A DNA stretch of 34,118 nt from Candidatus Roizmanbacteria bacterium RIFCSPHIGHO2_02_FULL_37_13b (GTDB taxonomy: Bacteria > Patescibacteriota > Microgenomatia > UBA1406 > HO2-37-13b): NCBI GenBank assembly GCA_001789395.1, contig MFZK01000007.1, forward strand, positions 1 to 34,118. Direction: 5' to 3'. Below, in pieces: positions 23,034-33,895 of this stretch (positions within the stretch are counted from its first letter, which is position 1; every line of letters starts with the position of its first letter). The translations under genes and the position numbers were made by a program. Under the pieces are notes generated by a model. The model was not told the DNA's origin, did not search any database, and saw only the letters and a program-made list of their open reading frames with translations.

Positions 23034-23126
23034 ATGCAGGTGGCGCGACTGGGAGGGCTTCCCGACAGCGCGCAACGAAGTGAGCACTGGCGGGAAGGAA
23101 AGGCGCGACAGAATCTGCTTAAATTG
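23034..23126 (+). repeat. Dispersed structured repeat F, copy 1
   Basis: 93 bp, about 88% like 27691-27784 in the same orientation. The common core is GACAGCGCGCAACGAAGTGA. The ends GCAG/CTGC and an inner CTTCCCG/CGGGAAG pair. It lies in the 5' flank of the M4 protease gene, in a frame open to that gene. Confidence 0.7.
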
Positions 23127-23138
23127 ATGTATTTAACC

Positions 23139-25904
23139 ATGTTCAAACAAATTAAACAATTGTATAAAAAAGACCCGATAATCCCCATATATTTACTTGG
23201 TTTTATTTTACTAGGAATTATTTTATTTCTGGTTCTTCAATCCGTTTCAAGTCCCAAACCTACTATAACTACACAATCAAAAGCGGAAAATATGCAACTT
23301 CTTAACACTTCAGGATTATCGAGTTTATCAACAGCAAATATTCTCAGAAATGGTATAAAGAGTGATCTTTATCTAGAGCCCCAAAACTATGATGATCCTT
23401 TATATATTGCAAAAAGCGGTAAAGGATTAGCTGCGGTAAATGAATTTATAAATGCACAGTCGACCATACCTCAATCATTACTCGCAAATGAGCCAGAGCA
23501 GCAATATATTTTTCCAAAAGACTTCATATCTAATTCATATTTGAGACGAATGTATAAAGATGAAATGTCCAATAGTTATGGAACCATTGAGCGTTATTAT
23601 TTTAATCAGACAATTAATGGTCTAGAGGTTTTGGGAGCTGAAAGTCGTATTGATCTACAGAATAGTAATAAAATTGTAGGTTTGGAAAATGAACTTCTGA
23701 TGGACGAGAGTACTGAATATCCAGTATTCACACAATCTCAAGCAGAACAAGTGGCTTTGGATCAAGCTGAATCAACAAACAGCAATCTCGATTTTGTCTT
23801 TTGTGATCAAAAAAAAGAGAAACGGGTCATTGTGAATCGGCAATTTTTAGGGACGCAGCAGTTTGATAAAAATTGTATCTCTTTAGCAGTGGATATATGT
23901 AATAACGGCGATATTCCGCAAGTTAATACAACTTATTATGTTTGTTTATCCTCAGGTGAAGTCGTTTTCGAACGAAACAATCTTCCTTCTGCGTTGTCAA
24001 GGGAGATTAGCAATTGCTCAACTGGGAGCTGTATTAAATCACGGTCAGAAGGGCAAGCAGCTGTTGGAGATGCTGATGTAGATAATTCTTATGATATCTT
24101 GAGCGATGTCTATAAATATTATTTCGATACCTTCGGGCGTGACAGTTTCAATTCAAGAGGAGCTACCCTTCGAGCCAATGTTAAAGCAAGGTCTGTAGGG
24201 GGACGACCTTGCCCTAATGCCATGTGGGATGGGAGTAAGATGTGGGCGTGCAGCGGGATGGTAGCAACTGACGTTTGGGCTCATGAACTGACACATGGAG
24301 TCGTTCAATATACGGCCGGTCTTGGAACATTCTATCAATCCGGTGCATTAAATGAAGCATTTGCTGATGTATTTGGCTTCGGAGCCGACCCAGATGATTG
24401 GACAATGGGTGAGGATACTGTTATGGGAATATTGCGAAATTTTCAGAGTCCACCATCTAAGAGTTCCGGAATCGGTCCAATGCCGGACCGAATGTTCAGT
24501 CCAAATTTCTATTGTGGGTCTGCTAATGATAATGGTGGCGTACACCATAATAGTACAGTTATAACCAAATCTCTTTACCTAATGATTACTGGAGGGACAT
24601 TTAGGGATTGTAATATCACACCAATAGATCGGAGCAAAATTCTGGCGGTTTTCTATAAAGCATTAACGAGTTATTTGTCGTCGAATGCTAATTTCTTACG
24701 ATTTTATAACGATATGTTGAAAGCCTGTGGTGATTTATATGGATTAAGTTCTACGGAATGTACGTCAGTTAAAGCAGCGATGCAGTCGACAGAACTTAAT
24801 CAACAACTCTCAGGAAGTCAATACGGACCCAATTGTCCCGGTTCAAAAGCGACATATAAAACGCCAGAGTGTGCTGGACAGGCAGGTGCGCCGACTTCAA
24901 CTCCCGGACCTACAGGTGAGGATACTGAGCCAACGCCAACGACTTCACTTCGGGTAAGTCCGACTCCTGATGATGGTGAGCCGACTCCAACTGACGGCGA
25001 GTCACCCGCAGATACACCAAGTCCTACAGATGAAGAACCAACAGAAACGCCTTCGATTACACCGGAGATTAGTCCAACCCCAGTCGATGGTGAATTGACG
25101 CCGACTCCTTCGAGCAGTCAAGTCCATCCGGAGGTAAAAAATATTATTTATGAAGAGCCATGCGATACGCAATATTTTGGTGAGCCAGGGTGGGGTTCTT
25201 ATAGATATGCTCATTATCAGTGTAGCGATGGCCGGACAGGTTGGTCGGGTGATGGCGATTGCCGGTCAAGTGATGATTTGTTGGATGAGGCGGTAAGGAT
25301 TTGCAGCGGCGAATATCCGGAGCCCACTGAAGGACCAGAACCGACAGAACGACCAAATCCAACTCCGGGGAAATTACAGCTTTCGATAAGATTGAAGTTT
25401 CAGGGTGTCAATTATGATACAGCTATTATCGATGGTATGCCAATAAAAGTAGGGCTTATGACGCGTTTTTCTTCGCCGATTTTTAAAAAGACGACGTTTT
25501 ATCTTAACTCGGATAACACCTGGACCGGTTGGATCGATTATGATCCAAAAGACGAAGAAGGTTATTGTTTACTTATCAAAGGACCTTATCATATCCAACG
25601 GAAAGTTTGTCATCTAAAACCACAAGAAGAAATTCCCGGAAGTTATAGACCAAAAGATAATTTCATGACGCTTGAACCGGGTAATAATTCCTTGGATTTT
25701 TCCGGCATCACCCAATTTGTCGGAGATCTTGGCAATCAGGATGGAGTGGTCAATTCAATAGATTTTGGTGCATGCAAGTTTTTTTATGACAGAGATGATG
25801 ACCAGGCCTTACAGATCGCCGACAGCAATCTTGATGGAATAGTCAATACCTTAGATTGCGATTTGATTTATCAGGCGCTGAAATATAAATTTGATGAAGA
25901 ATGA
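23139..25904 (+). CDS. Membrane-anchored thermolysin-family (M4) metalloprotease with dockerin
   Basis: 921 aa from the ATG at 23139. Anchor helix (14-35), a propeptide region (about 60-290, FTP/PepSY-like), then the M4 catalytic domain: HELTH at 382-386 (zinc His382, His386; catalytic Glu383), Glu406 in GALNEAFAD as third zinc ligand, and His469 in GGVHHNS. A Pro/Thr/Glu linker follows (about 585-665), one Cys module (672-724), a KFQG beta domain (745-860) and a dockerin (about 862-921, second loop ADSNLDGIVNTLD). The frame is open up to an ATG at 23034, but those extra 35 residues are encoded by a dispersed repeat; 23127 is another possible start. Likely docked on the cohesin proteins of the same operon, acting on extracellular protein. 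Confidence 0.93.
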   Translation: MFKQIKQLYKKDPIIPIYLLGFILLGIILFLVLQSVSSPKPTITTQSKAENMQLLNTSGLSSLSTANILRNGIKSDLYLEPQNYDDPLYIAKSGKGLAAVNEFINAQSTIPQSLLANEPEQQYIFPKDFISNSYLRRMYKDEMSNSYGTIERYYFNQTINGLEVLGAESRIDLQNSNKIVGLENELLMDESTEYPVFTQSQAEQVALDQAESTNSNLDFVFCDQKKEKRVIVNRQFLGTQQFDKNCISLAVDICNNGDIPQVNTTYYVCLSSGEVVFERNNLPSALSREISNCSTGSCIKSRSEGQAAVGDADVDNSYDILSDVYKYYFDTFGRDSFNSRGATLRANVKARSVGGRPCPNAMWDGSKMWACSGMVATDVWAHELTHGVVQYTAGLGTFYQSGALNEAFADVFGFGADPDDWTMGEDTVMGILRNFQSPPSKSSGIGPMPDRMFSPNFYCGSANDNGGVHHNSTVITKSLYLMITGGTFRDCNITPIDRSKILAVFYKALTSYLSSNANFLRFYNDMLKACGDLYGLSSTECTSVKAAMQSTELNQQLSGSQYGPNCPGSKATYKTPECAGQAGAPTSTPGPTGEDTEPTPTTSLRVSPTPDDGEPTPTDGESPADTPSPTDEEPTETPSITPEISPTPVDGELTPTPSSSQVHPEVKNIIYEEPCDTQYFGEPGWGSYRYAHYQCSDGRTGWSGDGDCRSSDDLLDEAVRICSGEYPEPTEGPEPTERPNPTPGKLQLSIRLKFQGVNYDTAIIDGMPIKVGLMTRFSSPIFKKTTFYLNSDNTWTGWIDYDPKDEEGYCLLIKGPYHIQRKVCHLKPQEEIPGSYRPKDNFMTLEPGNNSLDFSGITQFVGDLGNQDGVVNSIDFGACKFFYDRDDDQALQIADSNLDGIVNTLDCDLIYQALKYKFDEE

Positions 25905-25914
25905 AAATATTAAG

Positions 25915-26010
25915 TAACAAGTAACAATCACCAAGAAACAAACAAATTCCAAATTACAATTTCCAAACAAGTTTGTTTTCTTGGAATTTGGTTATTGGTC
26001 ATTGTTTGTA
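25915..26010. repeat. Low-complexity inverted repeat after the cohesin/dockerin operon
   Basis: Arms rich in CCAAGAAAC / GTTTTCTTGG and CAAATTCC / GGAATTTG, ending in ACAATCACC / GGTCATTG. It probably forms a long imperfect hairpin that could end the operon transcript. It is the first part of the 386-bp gap 25905-26290. Confidence 0.5.
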
Positions 26011-26106
26011 ACCCCCGAGGTTAGACATGGGCAATGATGATAGTAACCGAGGCCATTAACCCCCGAGGTTAGACATGGGCAATGATGACAGAAACCTCGG
26101 GGGTTA
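26009..26106. repeat. 35-bp direct repeat pair with a shared inverted arm
   Basis: Copies at 26009-26043 and 26057-26091 differ at one base; both start TAACCCCCGAGGTT. The inverse arm AACCTCGGGGGTTA (26093-26106) pairs perfectly over 14 bp with either copy, so two alternative hairpins are possible. Two copies are too few for a CRISPR array. A TTGACA follows at 26122-26127 without a well-spaced -10 box. Confidence 0.7.
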
Positions 26107-27690: not shown

Positions 27691-27784
27691 ATGCAGGTGG
27701 CACGATTGGGAGGGCGGTCCTGACAGCGCGCAACGAAGTGAGCACTGGCAGGAAGGAAAATCGTGACAGAATCTGCTGAAATTG
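27691..27784 (+). repeat. Dispersed structured repeat F, copy 2
   Basis: 94 bp, same orientation as 23034-23126. Here CACGATT pairs with AATCGTG, GTCCTG with CAGGA, and GCAG with CTGC. Relative to copy 1, a C-to-T change in one arm is matched by G-to-A in the other. It ends 12 bp before the next gene. Confidence 0.7.
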
Positions 27785-28483: not shown

Positions 28484-28659
28484 TCAATCGAAGATGTTCG
28501 TTTCGAGAAACCTTGGGATTCCCCGTGTCGATCCGACTCCGCCGAAGGCGGAGACGAGATCGCACGAGGGAGGGAGCCCACTGGTTCGAGAAACGGACAT
28601 CGAGGTTGAATATTGCGCACTTGATGGGGAGGACAGAGTGGCAGAATCTGCTCAAATTA
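28484..28659. repeat. Long hairpin element, copy D (intergenic)
   Basis: Core hairpin 28484-28609: arms GATGTTCGTTTC / GAAACGGACATC, then CGTG-T-CGATC / GATCGCACG, then a perfect inner stem CTCCGCC-GAA-GGCGGAG. The tail to 28659 (GCAGAATCTGCTCAAATT) matches the end of repeat F. It lies between the fibronectin-like gene and the end of the convergent site-2 protease gene. Confidence 0.7.
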
Positions 28660-29762: not shown

Positions 29763-29826
29763 AGAATTATGCAATTTATTTGGATATGGGATTTGATTTG
29801 AATTTTGGATTTTGACATTTGGATTT
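29709..29826. repeat. Inverted repeat spanning the convergent rpmB and def ends
   Basis: Left arm AAATCCAAAATCCAAAG..TGTCAAATC, right arm GATTTGAATTTTGGATTTTGACATTTGGATTT (in pieces). Long imperfect hairpin, probably a two-way terminator. Its left arm codes for the end of bL28. Confidence 0.55.
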
Positions 29827-29828
29827 TT

Positions 29829-30446
29829 TTAGATCTCATATCTCTCCAACTCCCCATTCTGTTCTCGATACAGTTTTCCTTTTTGCTCCAGCACTCGTTG
29901 TGTGAAAAGTGTTCCTGATAGGTGATCCATTTCATGTTGGATGATTATTGCTTCAAAGCCGGAAAACCATTTTTTTTGGTGTTTACCCTTTTCGTCCATA
30001 TATTCAAGTAACACCTTATCGGATCTGGTGACCCGTCCCCATATTTTAGGTATCGATAAGCATCCCTCAAGTTTCGTTTTTCTGTTTTTCCCCCCCGAGG
30101 AGTCCGTTCGGCCACCTCGTGGGTGGGTGGACGACTTCTTTTTCACATTTCCCATTTCAGTTTTCCCACTTCCAACCTCCATATCCAGTTTTTTACTTCT
30201 CATTTCCAACGTCAATATACTTGGGTTTATAAATACACTGATCTTGCTATCTGCTCTTGGTTTGATAATAAATATAGCCAGAGGTTTACCAATCTGAGGA
30301 GCAGCCAGTCCTACACCTTGAGGATCTGTTTGGTTTTCTAAAGCCACAATCATGTCCTTAATTATTTTTCGTATAGATAAATCAATGAGCTTGATTGGAA
30401 AAACCTTAGTCTGTAGAACCGGATTTGGGACCGTTACGATTTTCAT
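29829..30446 (-). CDS. def: Peptide deformylase with an in-frame insertion
   Basis: 205 aa. Removes the formyl group from nascent proteins. All three family motifs are present: GVGLAAPQIG (44-53), EGCLSIP (127-133, zinc Cys129) and QHEMDH (170-175, zinc His171 and His175, catalytic Glu172). Between motif 1 and motif 2, after NPSILTLE, about 40 extra residues (83-123, Lys/Ser/Gly-rich) are found where other deformylases have a short loop. They are encoded by a low-complexity block and a GC-rich palindrome. The catalytic core is otherwise intact, so activity is likely. A TAAAAT at 30458-30453, 6 nt before the ATG, suggests a leaderless transcript, though no good -35 is seen. Confidence 0.93.
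   Translation of the reverse strand: MKIVTVPNPVLQTKVFPIKLIDLSIRKIIKDMIVALENQTDPQGVGLAAPQIGKPLAIFIIKPRADSKISVFINPSILTLEMRSKKLDMEVGSGKTEMGNVKKKSSTHPRGGRTDSSGGKNRKTKLEGCLSIPKIWGRVTRSDKVLLEYMDEKGKHQKKWFSGFEAIIIQHEMDHLSGTLFTQRVLEQKGKLYREQNGELERYEI
30078..30200 (-). repeat. Repeat-derived insertion inside def
   Basis: The plus strand shows CCCATTTCAG, TTCCCACTTCCAACCTCC and CTCATTTCCAAC, the same kind of low-complexity sequence as after rplL (17554-17610), plus a G/C-rich block with CCCCCCGAGG and CCACCTCGTGGGTGG. It keeps the reading frame. Confidence 0.55.
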
Positions 30447-30480: not shown

Positions 30481-30570
30481 AGATGCCTGTTTTGAAGCGT
30501 AACTTGCCTGCCTGCCGGCAAGGCAGGGGTGACCCGTCGGGTGAATTTTGCGGAAAAACACGGCATCAAG
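30481..30570. repeat. 75-bp hairpin repeat family, copy C (with extra palindrome)
   Basis: Outer arms GATGCC/GGCATC and TGTTTT/AAAACA pair perfectly. The centre ACCCGTCGGGT is kept. An extra GCCTGCCGGCAAGGC-type palindrome is inserted in the left half. It overlaps the stop codon of the large membrane protein gene. Confidence 0.65.
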
Positions 30571-33500
30571 ATTTTTTTATTAAAAACACAATCACCATCA
30601 TCCCTAATAACCCCAGTCCGACAAACTCCAAATACTGCGGCCAAAAAACTATGACTAAATTGAGTTTTTTATCCTGAGCGGAGTCGAAGGACCAACCGTT
30701 TTCCCATCCATTCACCAACACATGCTCCTTCAACTCCTGACCAAAAATGAATGGGAAAATTTTAAAAAAGAAACTTTTGAATTTTGAACTTTGAGCTTTG
30801 AATTTGCTTTCATATGCTTTCCATCCTTCATTAAATGCTTGATTATTCGTGACGATTGATACAGCTCGTGATAAGCCATCCATTTTTTCCAGTCTGATTT
30901 CTTTTAACATGGCATAAGGCAAGCGATATAACTTTATTTCATAAAGATCATTGATTGTTTCATCTATTAATGAAATATTGTCAAGATGCAGATTGTAGCC
31001 AAGTCCAAATTCATTCATTGGCGGTATGATAAAATATTCAGCCGTCGCTGTTTTATTATGATTTAGTTCAACTTCAATATCAGCCTTTTTGGCCATATTA
31101 TTAATGACGGCGAATTTTAACGGCCGGCCCTTGACATTTTTGCTAACCACTTTTACCAAATATCCGGAAGAATGAGTCAAATCAGAGAGAACAATATCAT
31201 AACAGTTATGACTTTTGGAGGATATAAAACGTAATGTTTTTCCATCAATGATGTTTTGGTTAAATTTTCCTTTGAGATTATCACAAGCTTGAGGATTGCG
31301 GTCATAAAAAAATGGATCGGTTGTATTGTCATAAATAAGCTCAGCTGACTCAGACGCGATCTTAACCTCAAATTTATCTTGCTTTTTTCCCAGACTAAGA
31401 CTCAACTTTGTTGTGTCATTGTATTCTGACGGTAAAATGAGACGGTAACTGTCAAGCCCTTTAGGTATATCACTTGATATTGTTAACCCGTTATTTTCTG
31501 AAATTTTGATATTTTGCAAGCCCGTTCTGCCGGAAAACAATGTGCGGAAAGGGTAATATACGTCAAATTTTCGATTAGTGTCTGTGTAATACCGTCCATA
31601 TTTTTCATATGCGCTATCGAGATTGTTGAAATTAACATACGGGCCGATATTATAAGAGATGTCATTTGCATCCGAATTAAGAAATTTATCATTGTGATTG
31701 ACCTTATAAACCCGGATGGTATTGACGCTTGACAGCTCATCGTTGAATCTGGCCGCCAAACTGTATTTGACGGATTTTTTGATATATTCATCCAGTGCCT
31801 CTGAATAAAGGAAAGCCTTCGCCTGCGGGTAGGGGACTACATTTGGGTCAAACAAAATCCAGTCAATCTTGTATTTATCCATCAGCAGGTCAAAAAGATC
31901 AAATCTCTGACTATATATGGCATAATTTAACTCCCAGTAATAATTCTCATTCTGTCTGCCCCAGACATCGAAAGATCTATCCATTATCGGCTGCTCAATT
32001 CCATACCATAAAAATCCCGAACCCGAATAGCCCCATTTATACACGTTCCAACCCCAGTTCCAACCCTGCGGCATATTTGCGATCCGGCCTTGTCTATCCT
32101 GCTTTTTAAAATAGTCAAACAGATCCATGTACGCTTGTGGGATCTTTATTTTTGCCTCCGGGTAGATGAAATTGCCGGTGAACGCCGGAAAACCGAAATA
32201 AAATATTCCGCTAACAATAATTATTAAAGTTATTCCTTGGACGATTCTGACCAGAGATTTCTGAAAGATTGCCGATGCGATTTTAAGTAATAATACACAA
32301 CCTATTCCAAAATTAATTGCAAACAAAAAAGAATAGCCGATTGAAAATTTGGTGAAAGCTATTCTGAATGCTTGTTTGAAAATTGGGATTTTATGTAAAA
32401 GCACGGTGACATATGAAAAAGGAGGTGTATCTGTGACAAGGAGTGAAAATAGTAAAATAAAGCTTAAAGCAAAAGTAAAAAGCGCAGATACCCTTTTCGA
32501 AGCATAACTTGGGTTCACCCGTGGGGTGAAGTTTGCGAAGAAAAGTGGTATCAAGCGACGTATAAGAGTATACCCAATACTCAATATCGCAATCACAAAA
32601 AATCCATAACCGACGATATTGAATAGCGGATGCTGCATGTATTCAAGCCAGGTTAAAAATACCGGGACATTGGCTTTTTCAGCAGTCGTGTTTATCGTTT
32701 CGATGATAAATCCCTTGATCAACGCGGCATTACCAATCGTGCCATAAACCTTATTTTTGGCAATAAAATCCTCAGTAGATGATTGGTTATTATAAGCATG
32801 TAAATAATCGCTACTATTGGTGAAACTATAGTTCAAGACAGGTAATAACCAATATGCATTGATGGCGAAAGTGATAAAAAGCACGATCAGTGATCGTTTA
32901 AGGCGAGTTATAAAAGTGGGCGGGTCCTGTCGCTCAACAGCCCCATCAAGTGCTCGTTTATCAATTTCAAGCGTAGATGACCGTTTTATCGCGATTTGGG
33001 ATTCCCCGTCTCGACCCGACTTGCCCAAAGGGGAAGACGAGGTCGGACGAGGGAGGGTTCCCACTAGAGCAGAAAAACGCGTCATCAAGCGCCAAAACTG
33101 TGCGCTTGATGGGGCTCCCCGTTTCGCGCCACCCGCACCAGTTATTACATACACCAGCAAAAAGATCCCCAACAGCATCAAATACACCATAAAAAGCGGT
33201 GGTATAAAACCTTGAGTAGACGATAAAAGAGAAATCAAGGCAAAAATAAAAAGCGTTCGCCGATTCGGATTTTTAAGGTAATATATTAAACTTAAAAATA
33301 ACCAAGGTAAGGCAGCAAAATGGACGATAAATGCCTCAAGCTGAATATAAAAATTTTGCAGAGTGGATAAATTAACCAGATAAAATAGCGCCGCAAAAAA
33401 ACCGGCTTTATTTTTTAGATCTTCCTCTTCAAACGGCGCCACTTCACCCACAAGGAAAAATACACCATATACACCAACAAAAAGCATTAGAAAAGTAAAC

Positions 33501-33895
33501 GCCGCTCTAATGATGTTATCCGGCAAAACTATTGAGAGTAAAAAAGTGACAAAAGTATGAGGAAGTGTAGCTGCATAACCATGGCCGCCATAAGTACCTA
33601 ATCCCTGATATCCCTGCCACACAGCCATCAACCCCCGTTTGAAATTCAGGGCGAAATTAAATTCAGGATGAAGATTGTCCCATCCCGAAAACCACTCCTT
33701 TAAGGGAAAACTGAAAATAAGCAAGATTAGTAATATCAGGCTGAGAAGTAACAAATGATATGTTCTATTTGACGGATTTCTTAGCGCAGATACCCTTTTT
33801 GGAGCATAAATTGGGTTCACCCGTGGGGTGAATTTTGCGGAAAAAAGCGGTATCAAGGGATATATTTTCTTAAACCCCCGCCTTAGCCAGATCAT
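30566..33895 (-). CDS. Large polytopic membrane protein, YfhO/GT-C glycosyltransferase-like
   Basis: 1109 aa. About a dozen membrane helices in residues 45-560, starting after a loop with GWDNLHPEFNF (acidic first-loop residues as in GT-C enzymes), then a large exterior domain (about 560-1080) and one last helix near the C-terminus. GT-C proteins use lipid-linked sugars on the outer face; the specific role here is unknown. An AAAAGGAG ribosome binding site (33905-33912) supports the ATG at 33895, which overlaps the upstream gene by 26 nt. Four repeat blocks are read in frame: residues 13-37, 261-320, 447-471 and 1029-1041, each between or outside membrane helices; a further copy overlaps the stop codon. 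Confidence 0.8.
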   Translation of the reverse strand: MIWLRRGFKKIYPLIPLFSAKFTPRVNPIYAPKRVSALRNPSNRTYHLLLLSLILLILLIFSFPLKEWFSGWDNLHPEFNFALNFKRGLMAVWQGYQGLGTYGGHGYAATLPHTFVTFLLSIVLPDNIIRAAFTFLMLFVGVYGVFFLVGEVAPFEEEDLKNKAGFFAALFYLVNLSTLQNFYIQLEAFIVHFAALPWLFLSLIYYLKNPNRRTLFIFALISLLSSTQGFIPPLFMVYLMLLGIFLLVYVITGAGGAKRGAPSSAQFWRLMTRFSALVGTLPRPTSSSPLGKSGRDGESQIAIKRSSTLEIDKRALDGAVERQDPPTFITRLKRSLIVLFITFAINAYWLLPVLNYSFTNSSDYLHAYNNQSSTEDFIAKNKVYGTIGNAALIKGFIIETINTTAEKANVPVFLTWLEYMQHPLFNIVGYGFFVIAILSIGYTLIRRLIPLFFANFTPRVNPSYASKRVSALFTFALSFILLFSLLVTDTPPFSYVTVLLHKIPIFKQAFRIAFTKFSIGYSFLFAINFGIGCVLLLKIASAIFQKSLVRIVQGITLIIIVSGIFYFGFPAFTGNFIYPEAKIKIPQAYMDLFDYFKKQDRQGRIANMPQGWNWGWNVYKWGYSGSGFLWYGIEQPIMDRSFDVWGRQNENYYWELNYAIYSQRFDLFDLLMDKYKIDWILFDPNVVPYPQAKAFLYSEALDEYIKKSVKYSLAARFNDELSSVNTIRVYKVNHNDKFLNSDANDISYNIGPYVNFNNLDSAYEKYGRYYTDTNRKFDVYYPFRTLFSGRTGLQNIKISENNGLTISSDIPKGLDSYRLILPSEYNDTTKLSLSLGKKQDKFEVKIASESAELIYDNTTDPFFYDRNPQACDNLKGKFNQNIIDGKTLRFISSKSHNCYDIVLSDLTHSSGYLVKVVSKNVKGRPLKFAVINNMAKKADIEVELNHNKTATAEYFIIPPMNEFGLGYNLHLDNISLIDETINDLYEIKLYRLPYAMLKEIRLEKMDGLSRAVSIVTNNQAFNEGWKAYESKFKAQSSKFKSFFFKIFPFIFGQELKEHVLVNGWENGWSFDSAQDKKLNLVIVFWPQYLEFVGLGLLGMMVIVFLIKKS
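30774..30812 (-). repeat. Low-complexity repeat inside the membrane protein gene
   Basis: On minus it reads AAATTCAAAGCTCAAAG and on to TTCAAAATTCAAAAG, encoding SKFKAQSSKFKSF. It is the same kind of repeat as at the rpmB end (AATCCAAAGCTCAAATG). In frame, near residues 1029-1041. Confidence 0.5.
32482..32556. repeat. 75-bp hairpin repeat family, copy A (in frame inside a gene)
   Basis: About 91% identical to copy B (7 mismatches in 75). Imperfect palindrome: GATACC/GGTATC, CTTTTC/GAAAAG, AACTT/AAGTT, centre TTCACCC-GTG-GGGTGAA. On minus it encodes IPLFFANFTPRVNPSYASKR. Confidence 0.85.
32939..33116. repeat. Long hairpin element, copy E (in frame inside a gene), with terminal inverted repeats
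   Basis: Terminal arms AGCCCCATCAAGTGC (32939-32953) and GCGCTTGATGGGGCT (33102-33116) match at 14 of 15. Inner arms: GATGACCGTTTT / AAAACGCGTCATC, CGTC-T-CGACC / GGTCGGACG, and CTTGCCC-AAA-GGGGAAG. Same design and orientation as copy D at 28484. It codes for residues about 261-320 of the membrane protein. Confidence 0.75.
33783..33857. repeat. 75-bp hairpin repeat family, copy B (in frame inside a gene)
   Basis: Same 75-bp length as copy A. Arms GATACC/GGTATC, CTTTTT/AAAAAAG, AAATT/AATTT, centre TTCACCC-GTG-GGGTGAA. Encodes residues about 13-37 of the membrane protein (IPLFSAKFTPRVNPIYAPKR). Confidence 0.85.

Follow-up and report, generated by a model that had tools for sequence, protein, structure and literature searches.

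The DNA analysed here (the window, 34,118 nucleotides) is one entire contig from the 1.16-Mb genome of Candidatus Roizmanbacteria bacterium RIFCSPHIGHO2_02_FULL_37_13b, hereafter the source genome. It carries a gene for a multi-pass membrane protein, within and around which lie several hairpin-forming elements (Table 1). The host protein had no match in Pfam, but relatives were present in 32 of the 38 genomes searched; a search of genome contigs for orthologues of the host gene gave no match.

Table 1 Hairpin elements and their host gene in the window
Feature	Position	Strand	Remarks
Host gene, multi-pass membrane protein, 1109 aa	30566..33895	-	
Copy A, 75-nt hairpin element	32482..32556	+	In frame, host-gene residues 447-472 (gene on -)
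Copy B, 75-nt hairpin element	33784..33858	+	In frame, host-gene residues 13-38 (gene on -)
Copy C, 90-nt hairpin element	30481..30570	+	Provides the stop codon of the host gene
GC-rich 20-nt palindrome GCCTGCCTGCCGGCAAGGCA nested in copy C	30506..30525	+	
Third in-frame element, same terminal stem, larger apical arm	32970..33092	+	Host-gene residues 268-309
R1 outer hairpin enclosing the third element	about 32919..33147	+	Full insertion about residues 250-326
Related hairpin, GATGTTCGTTTC/GAAACGGACATC stem, large apical arm	about 28484..28610	+	Intergenic, borderline member
R1 outer-type hairpin without inner element	23034..23126	+	Overlaps predicted M4 peptidase ORF start
Second R1 hairpin without inner element	27691..27784	+	89% identity to first R1 (23034)

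A preliminary description of the window had reported two 75-nt copies lying in frame within one membrane protein, and a third copy overlapping its stop. Both statements proved right, except that copy B starts at 33784 and not at 33783. Copies A and B are 88% identical across 83 nt and share one reading frame within ORF 30566-33895(-), where they encode the peptides LIPLFFANFTPRVNPSYASKRVSAL and LIPLFSAKFTPRVNPIYAPKRVSAL. Since copy B begins 12 codons downstream of the ATG at 33895, which has AAGGAG 9 nt upstream of it, its sequence context suggests that it is probably translated. The TGA stop (30566-30568) falls inside the first arm of copy C, which reaches 90 nt because of the palindrome nested in it; a similar nested palindrome occurs at another locus (L099). 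All three copies fold more stably on the plus strand than their dinucleotide shuffles (z -3.2 to -4.5).

BLAST found six full or partial copies in the source genome, and a first covariance model built from these six added eight more with larger apical arms (E < 0.01). One in-frame element of the host gene had been overlooked in the preliminary description: the one at 32970-33092 scored E 7e-5 with the first covariance model and 2e-7 with a second, and it sits inside an R1 hairpin of a type that also stands empty elsewhere in the window. The intergenic hairpin at 28484-28610 was not among the covariance-model matches.

We aligned the host protein with 12 orthologues. In most of them both internal loops, including that which receives copy A, are only a few residues long, the residues of copy B are absent, and the full R1 insertion is missing. 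In the loop of copy A, one relative (L018) carries an inserted peptide of another kind, SSTEPVLSEVEG; a second relative (L023) has an insert of its own where the third copy lies. Loops that are short or missing in orthologues show that the inserted residues are no ordinary conserved part of the protein, in agreement with the preliminary description.

Several other stretches of the window also caught our attention. Near the C-terminus of the host protein, FDSAQDKK and SKFKAQSSKFKSF (window 30666-30700 and 30776-30826) look repeat-derived as well, the repeats there being a palindrome of the TCCTTCGACTCCGCTCAGGA type and a repeat shared with 29797-29847. An in-frame GC-rich stretch at 30070-30150, STHPRGGRTDSSGGKN, lies within the peptide deformylase gene (29829-30446) and may be another insertion. 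At 26009-26104 there is a tandem pair of 48-nt copies (TAACCCCCGAGGTTAGACATGGGCAATGATGA...) with arms CCCCGAGGTT/AACCTCGGGG. Finally, an R1 hairpin repeat contains the ATG predicted for a thermolysin-like ORF (23034-25904), whose real start codon may therefore lie farther downstream.

The element is about 57-132 nt long, with a core often of 57-90 nt, and follows a common plan. From outside to inside, this consists of a short outer stem, a G-N-A / R-A internal loop, a 6-bp stem, one bulged base, a further 6-bp stem and an exchangeable apical arm. The outer stem varies among copies (AGC/GCT, CCC/GGG, TTC/GAA, GGC/GCC), the first 6-bp stem reads GAYRYC/GRYRTC, the second is T-rich/A-rich, and the apical arm is variable. 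The preliminary description had listed paired changes between the arms of copies A, B and C. These proved real; in copy C the AACTT arm has lost its partner through one mismatch. Across the six copies found by BLAST, 5 of 25 pairs had changed on both sides, compared with 1.8 in shuffles, and none of 500 shuffles reached 5; when the partner was slid by 1-3 columns in an independent MAFFT alignment of the six, 0 or 1 both-sided pairs remained.

The covariation was borne out in a wider set. In an alignment of 115 copies fitted to the covariance model (A3), 99.0% of stem cells were paired, and 10 of 12 pairs showed both-sided changes, amounting to 171 cells against 34 ± 7 in shuffles that leave relatedness in; slid pairings gave 2 to 20 such cells. 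Within single genomes, 2 to 5 pairs showed at least two Watson-Crick types. Unpaired positions were kept as well: the one-base bulge was present in 97 of the 115 copies (a C in 77), the left loop was G[A/C/T]A in 107 and the right loop GA or AA in 114, and the G/A position of the internal loop was Watson-Crick in only 2%. Stem mismatches were strongly skewed, with a G.T:A.C ratio of 66:7, or 39:7 when collapsed per genome and pair and 8:1 in the 30 best copies, although these counts are not fully independent and the G-U preference of an RNA model may explain part of the excess.

Paired changes of this kind would also arise if copying through the fold kept the two arms alike, each being corrected against its partner by template switching during replication, without any selection on the hairpin; the outer flanks of intergenic copies, which are partly complementary too, fit such a process. 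Arm correction should, however, erase mismatches, yet the internal loop and the bulge remain, and it leaves the excess of G.T over A.C unexplained. We therefore consider it unlikely as the whole explanation. The preliminary description had proposed either selection on the folded form or copying through it, and the data support that proposal while favouring its first part: since G.T mismatches far outnumber A.C and the bulge and internal loop are kept, the folded form of one strand seems to be selected. Taken at face value, then, the kept feature seems to be the fold of one strand, as RNA or as single-stranded DNA.

Within the same order, the covariance model matched 49 of 83 genomes; class-wide it matched 21 of 233, 16 of the 21 belonging to that order, and, under stricter filters, it matched 2 of 380 genomes sampled over the phylum. 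All records matching in a pattern search were Ca. Roizmanbacteria; the source genome belongs to the same order as these records but to another family. The highest copy number was 20, in genome G050. Intergenic and in-gene copies were both present, dispersed within single genomes. We also considered a phage origin and set it aside: the exact element pattern was absent from viral contigs, and a plasmid search returned no match.

Of 114 distinct copies, 31 (29 without two doubtful ORFs) were embedded in an open frame that extends for at least 40 codons to either side, compared with 65% of random positions. These in-gene copies occur in both orientations, and more than one of their reading frames is used. 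Their hosts include DHFR, LeuRS, a tyrosyl-type tRNA synthetase, MiaB, MurD, NAD synthetase, DprA, a P-type ATPase and an M16 peptidase, together with TGT, QueA and TatD, the latter two each hit at the same site in two genomes, and AcsA, which has two insertions apiece in two genomes; the families of ten of the host proteins were confirmed by Pfam and the remainder were named from sequence. Pfam domains run across the insertion in QueA, TGT and TatD. In DHFR, matches to solved structures lie on either side and break exactly at the insertion, where 28 residues replace 7. A search for genes interrupted by a copy, with at least 80 codons to either side, found none, and at the 83 other copies no two long frames of the same strand both ran into the element.

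Hairpin insertions in essential genes are known that are bypassed in translation, as cited in PMC6649704 for the mitochondrial byps of Magnusiomyces, and the in-gene copies could in principle be ribosome-skipped, or spliced out, in a similar manner. Skipping or splicing needs no open frame, yet the in-gene copies are open in frame and split genes were not found; of the alternatives considered here, we regard this as the least probable. The copies would be translated as added loops. Other inserted peptides occupy the same loops of QueA, TatD, TGT, MurD, CopA and NadE in other species of the genus, so these loops either receive insertions repeatedly or are the only ones that tolerate them.

Some of these neighbouring inserts are worth recording. 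In QueA, TatD, TGT and CopA of other species (L191-L198, L171, L186, L200 and L201), other families of apparently palindrome-encoded peptides, FLSQRGPxxPESEKNL and FVTRESHHP..SKVKNL among them, occupy the loops used by the element. The QueA gene of genome G054 (L195) has, with IARQHVFSSATQLSLL, an apparently internally deleted copy of the element at the same site as in L064 and L134.

The in-gene copies also bear on what maintains the fold. Watson-Crick pairing in the stem stands at 96% for in-gene copies and 93% for the others. Because in-gene stems are kept equally well, whichever way the copy faces relative to the gene, stem conservation is unlikely to be due to selection in the host mRNA. 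More generally, the hairpins might serve the host as RNA, as transcription terminators or regulatory structures: they are stable, many are intergenic with A-tract and T-tract ends, and G.T is tolerated on one strand. The genes around intergenic copies, on the other hand, are arranged as in the background (48 tandem, 17 divergent, 10 convergent), about 30 copies are in genes, with 16 antisense and 13 sense in the stricter count, and the element matched none of the curated families in Rfam. A role as host RNA is thus very improbable, though marginally less so than skipping or splicing. For terminators in particular, the candidate was rejected, as convergent genes were not preferred around intergenic copies.

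We consider it likely that copies A, B and C and the third copy are short, non-autonomous mobile hairpin elements, found mainly in a single patescibacterial order, the one to which Ca. Roizmanbacteria belongs. We infer movement from dispersal; a near-identical pair of occupied and empty sites was not found, and the element ends had no obvious direct repeats. Dispersal, nesting and conservation of shape are consistent with a non-autonomous element whose mobilising activity recognises a folded single strand. The spreading step would act on one DNA strand in its folded single-stranded form, or on RNA of that strand, and paired changes would survive because this step reads the fold. Insertions in genes would persist only where the frame is kept and a tolerant loop is hit, and a persisting insertion is predicted to be translated as an extra peptide of 25-40 residues.

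The candidate enzyme for this step would be a transposase of the Y1 (HUH) type, which is known to process the hairpins of REP and IS200/IS605, although the link is weak. Y1 transposases act on the folded single strands of such hairpins (PMC6006769). The source genome has nine Y1 genes, and over 83 genomes the number of Y1 genes correlated weakly with copy number (Spearman 0.36, kinship uncorrected). In G050, whose genome is 81% complete, a Y1 gene was not detected. No Y1 gene was found to share ends with the element. As a flanking partner, the Y1 transposase was rejected: of eight loci examined among the nine genes of the source genome, seven had no nearby copies, and at one the element lay about 1.2 kb away. 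Separately, the Y1 gene at L008 (source genome C3) has CAATCCCGGGATTG palindromes on both sides (1226-1279 and 1941-2022), as expected for a REP/RAYT unit distinct from the element studied here.

To our knowledge, no enzyme has been assigned to the mobilisation of Rickettsia palindromic elements (RPE) or of the Wolbachia palindromic elements. RPE insertions also occur in RNA genes. RPE are palindromes of 105-146 bp; they occupy intergenic sites and also, in frame, 19 genes, one tested gene product being active (PMC2229807). The element resembles RPE and the Wolbachia elements in being a palindromic repeat that is present in intergenic DNA and, inserted in frame, in conserved protein genes (PMC2229807); specifically, it is a dispersed long stem-loop palindrome, in frame in conserved genes and absent from orthologues. 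It differs in belonging to another phylum and in its core, often 57-90 nt rather than 105-146 nt. Moreover, RPE copies are said to lose their repeat identity over time (PMC6649704), whereas the element keeps its fold order-wide, with fixed bulge and internal loop and with compensated changes. By analogy of features and published descriptions rather than of sequence, we regard the family as protein-coding palindromic elements that would work like RPE.

Other systems are less close. With REP/REPIN and their RAYT (Y1 HUH), the element shares a short imperfect palindrome, conserved unpaired bases and a strand-specific shape, and many genomes that carry it have Y1 transposase genes. However, the element flanks none of the Y1 loci examined (8 of 9 in the source genome), as REP copies would flank their own RAYT gene. 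REP are also 20-40 bp and mainly extragenic (PMC3733652), whereas the element is longer and also in genes. Bacterial MITEs (ERIC, YPAL, Correia) are likewise small non-autonomous repeats with terminal inverted repeats and some in-frame gene fusions (PMC2229807), but a MITE would be expected to show a target-site duplication and an autonomous parent transposon sharing its ends; the ends of the element had no obvious direct repeats, and none of the Y1 genes was seen to share them. Nematomorph coding palindromes and the Magnusiomyces byps are also hairpins within coding sequence; unlike the element, the former are mitochondrial perfect inverted repeats and the latter are mitochondrial and skipped in translation (PMC6649704). 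Searches of open-access papers turned up none that describes such elements in Patescibacteria.

Until now, protein-coding palindromic elements have been a curiosity, reported chiefly in Rickettsia and Wolbachia. With a second lineage, many species and strong covariation, it can now be asked which part of the hairpin movement needs and which strand folds, and also how DHFR, LeuRS, MiaB and other enzymes tolerate 25-40 extra residues. There is a consequence for annotation as well: peptides repeated among the proteins of these bacteria can stem from mobile DNA and are no evidence of homology. We put forward more tentatively, as a reading with somewhat less than an even chance, that what members of this family inherit as their identity is mainly a strand-specific fold, and that they spread through single-stranded DNA or RNA, exchange and nest apical modules, and have added translated loops to many conserved enzymes throughout an order of ultra-small bacteria.
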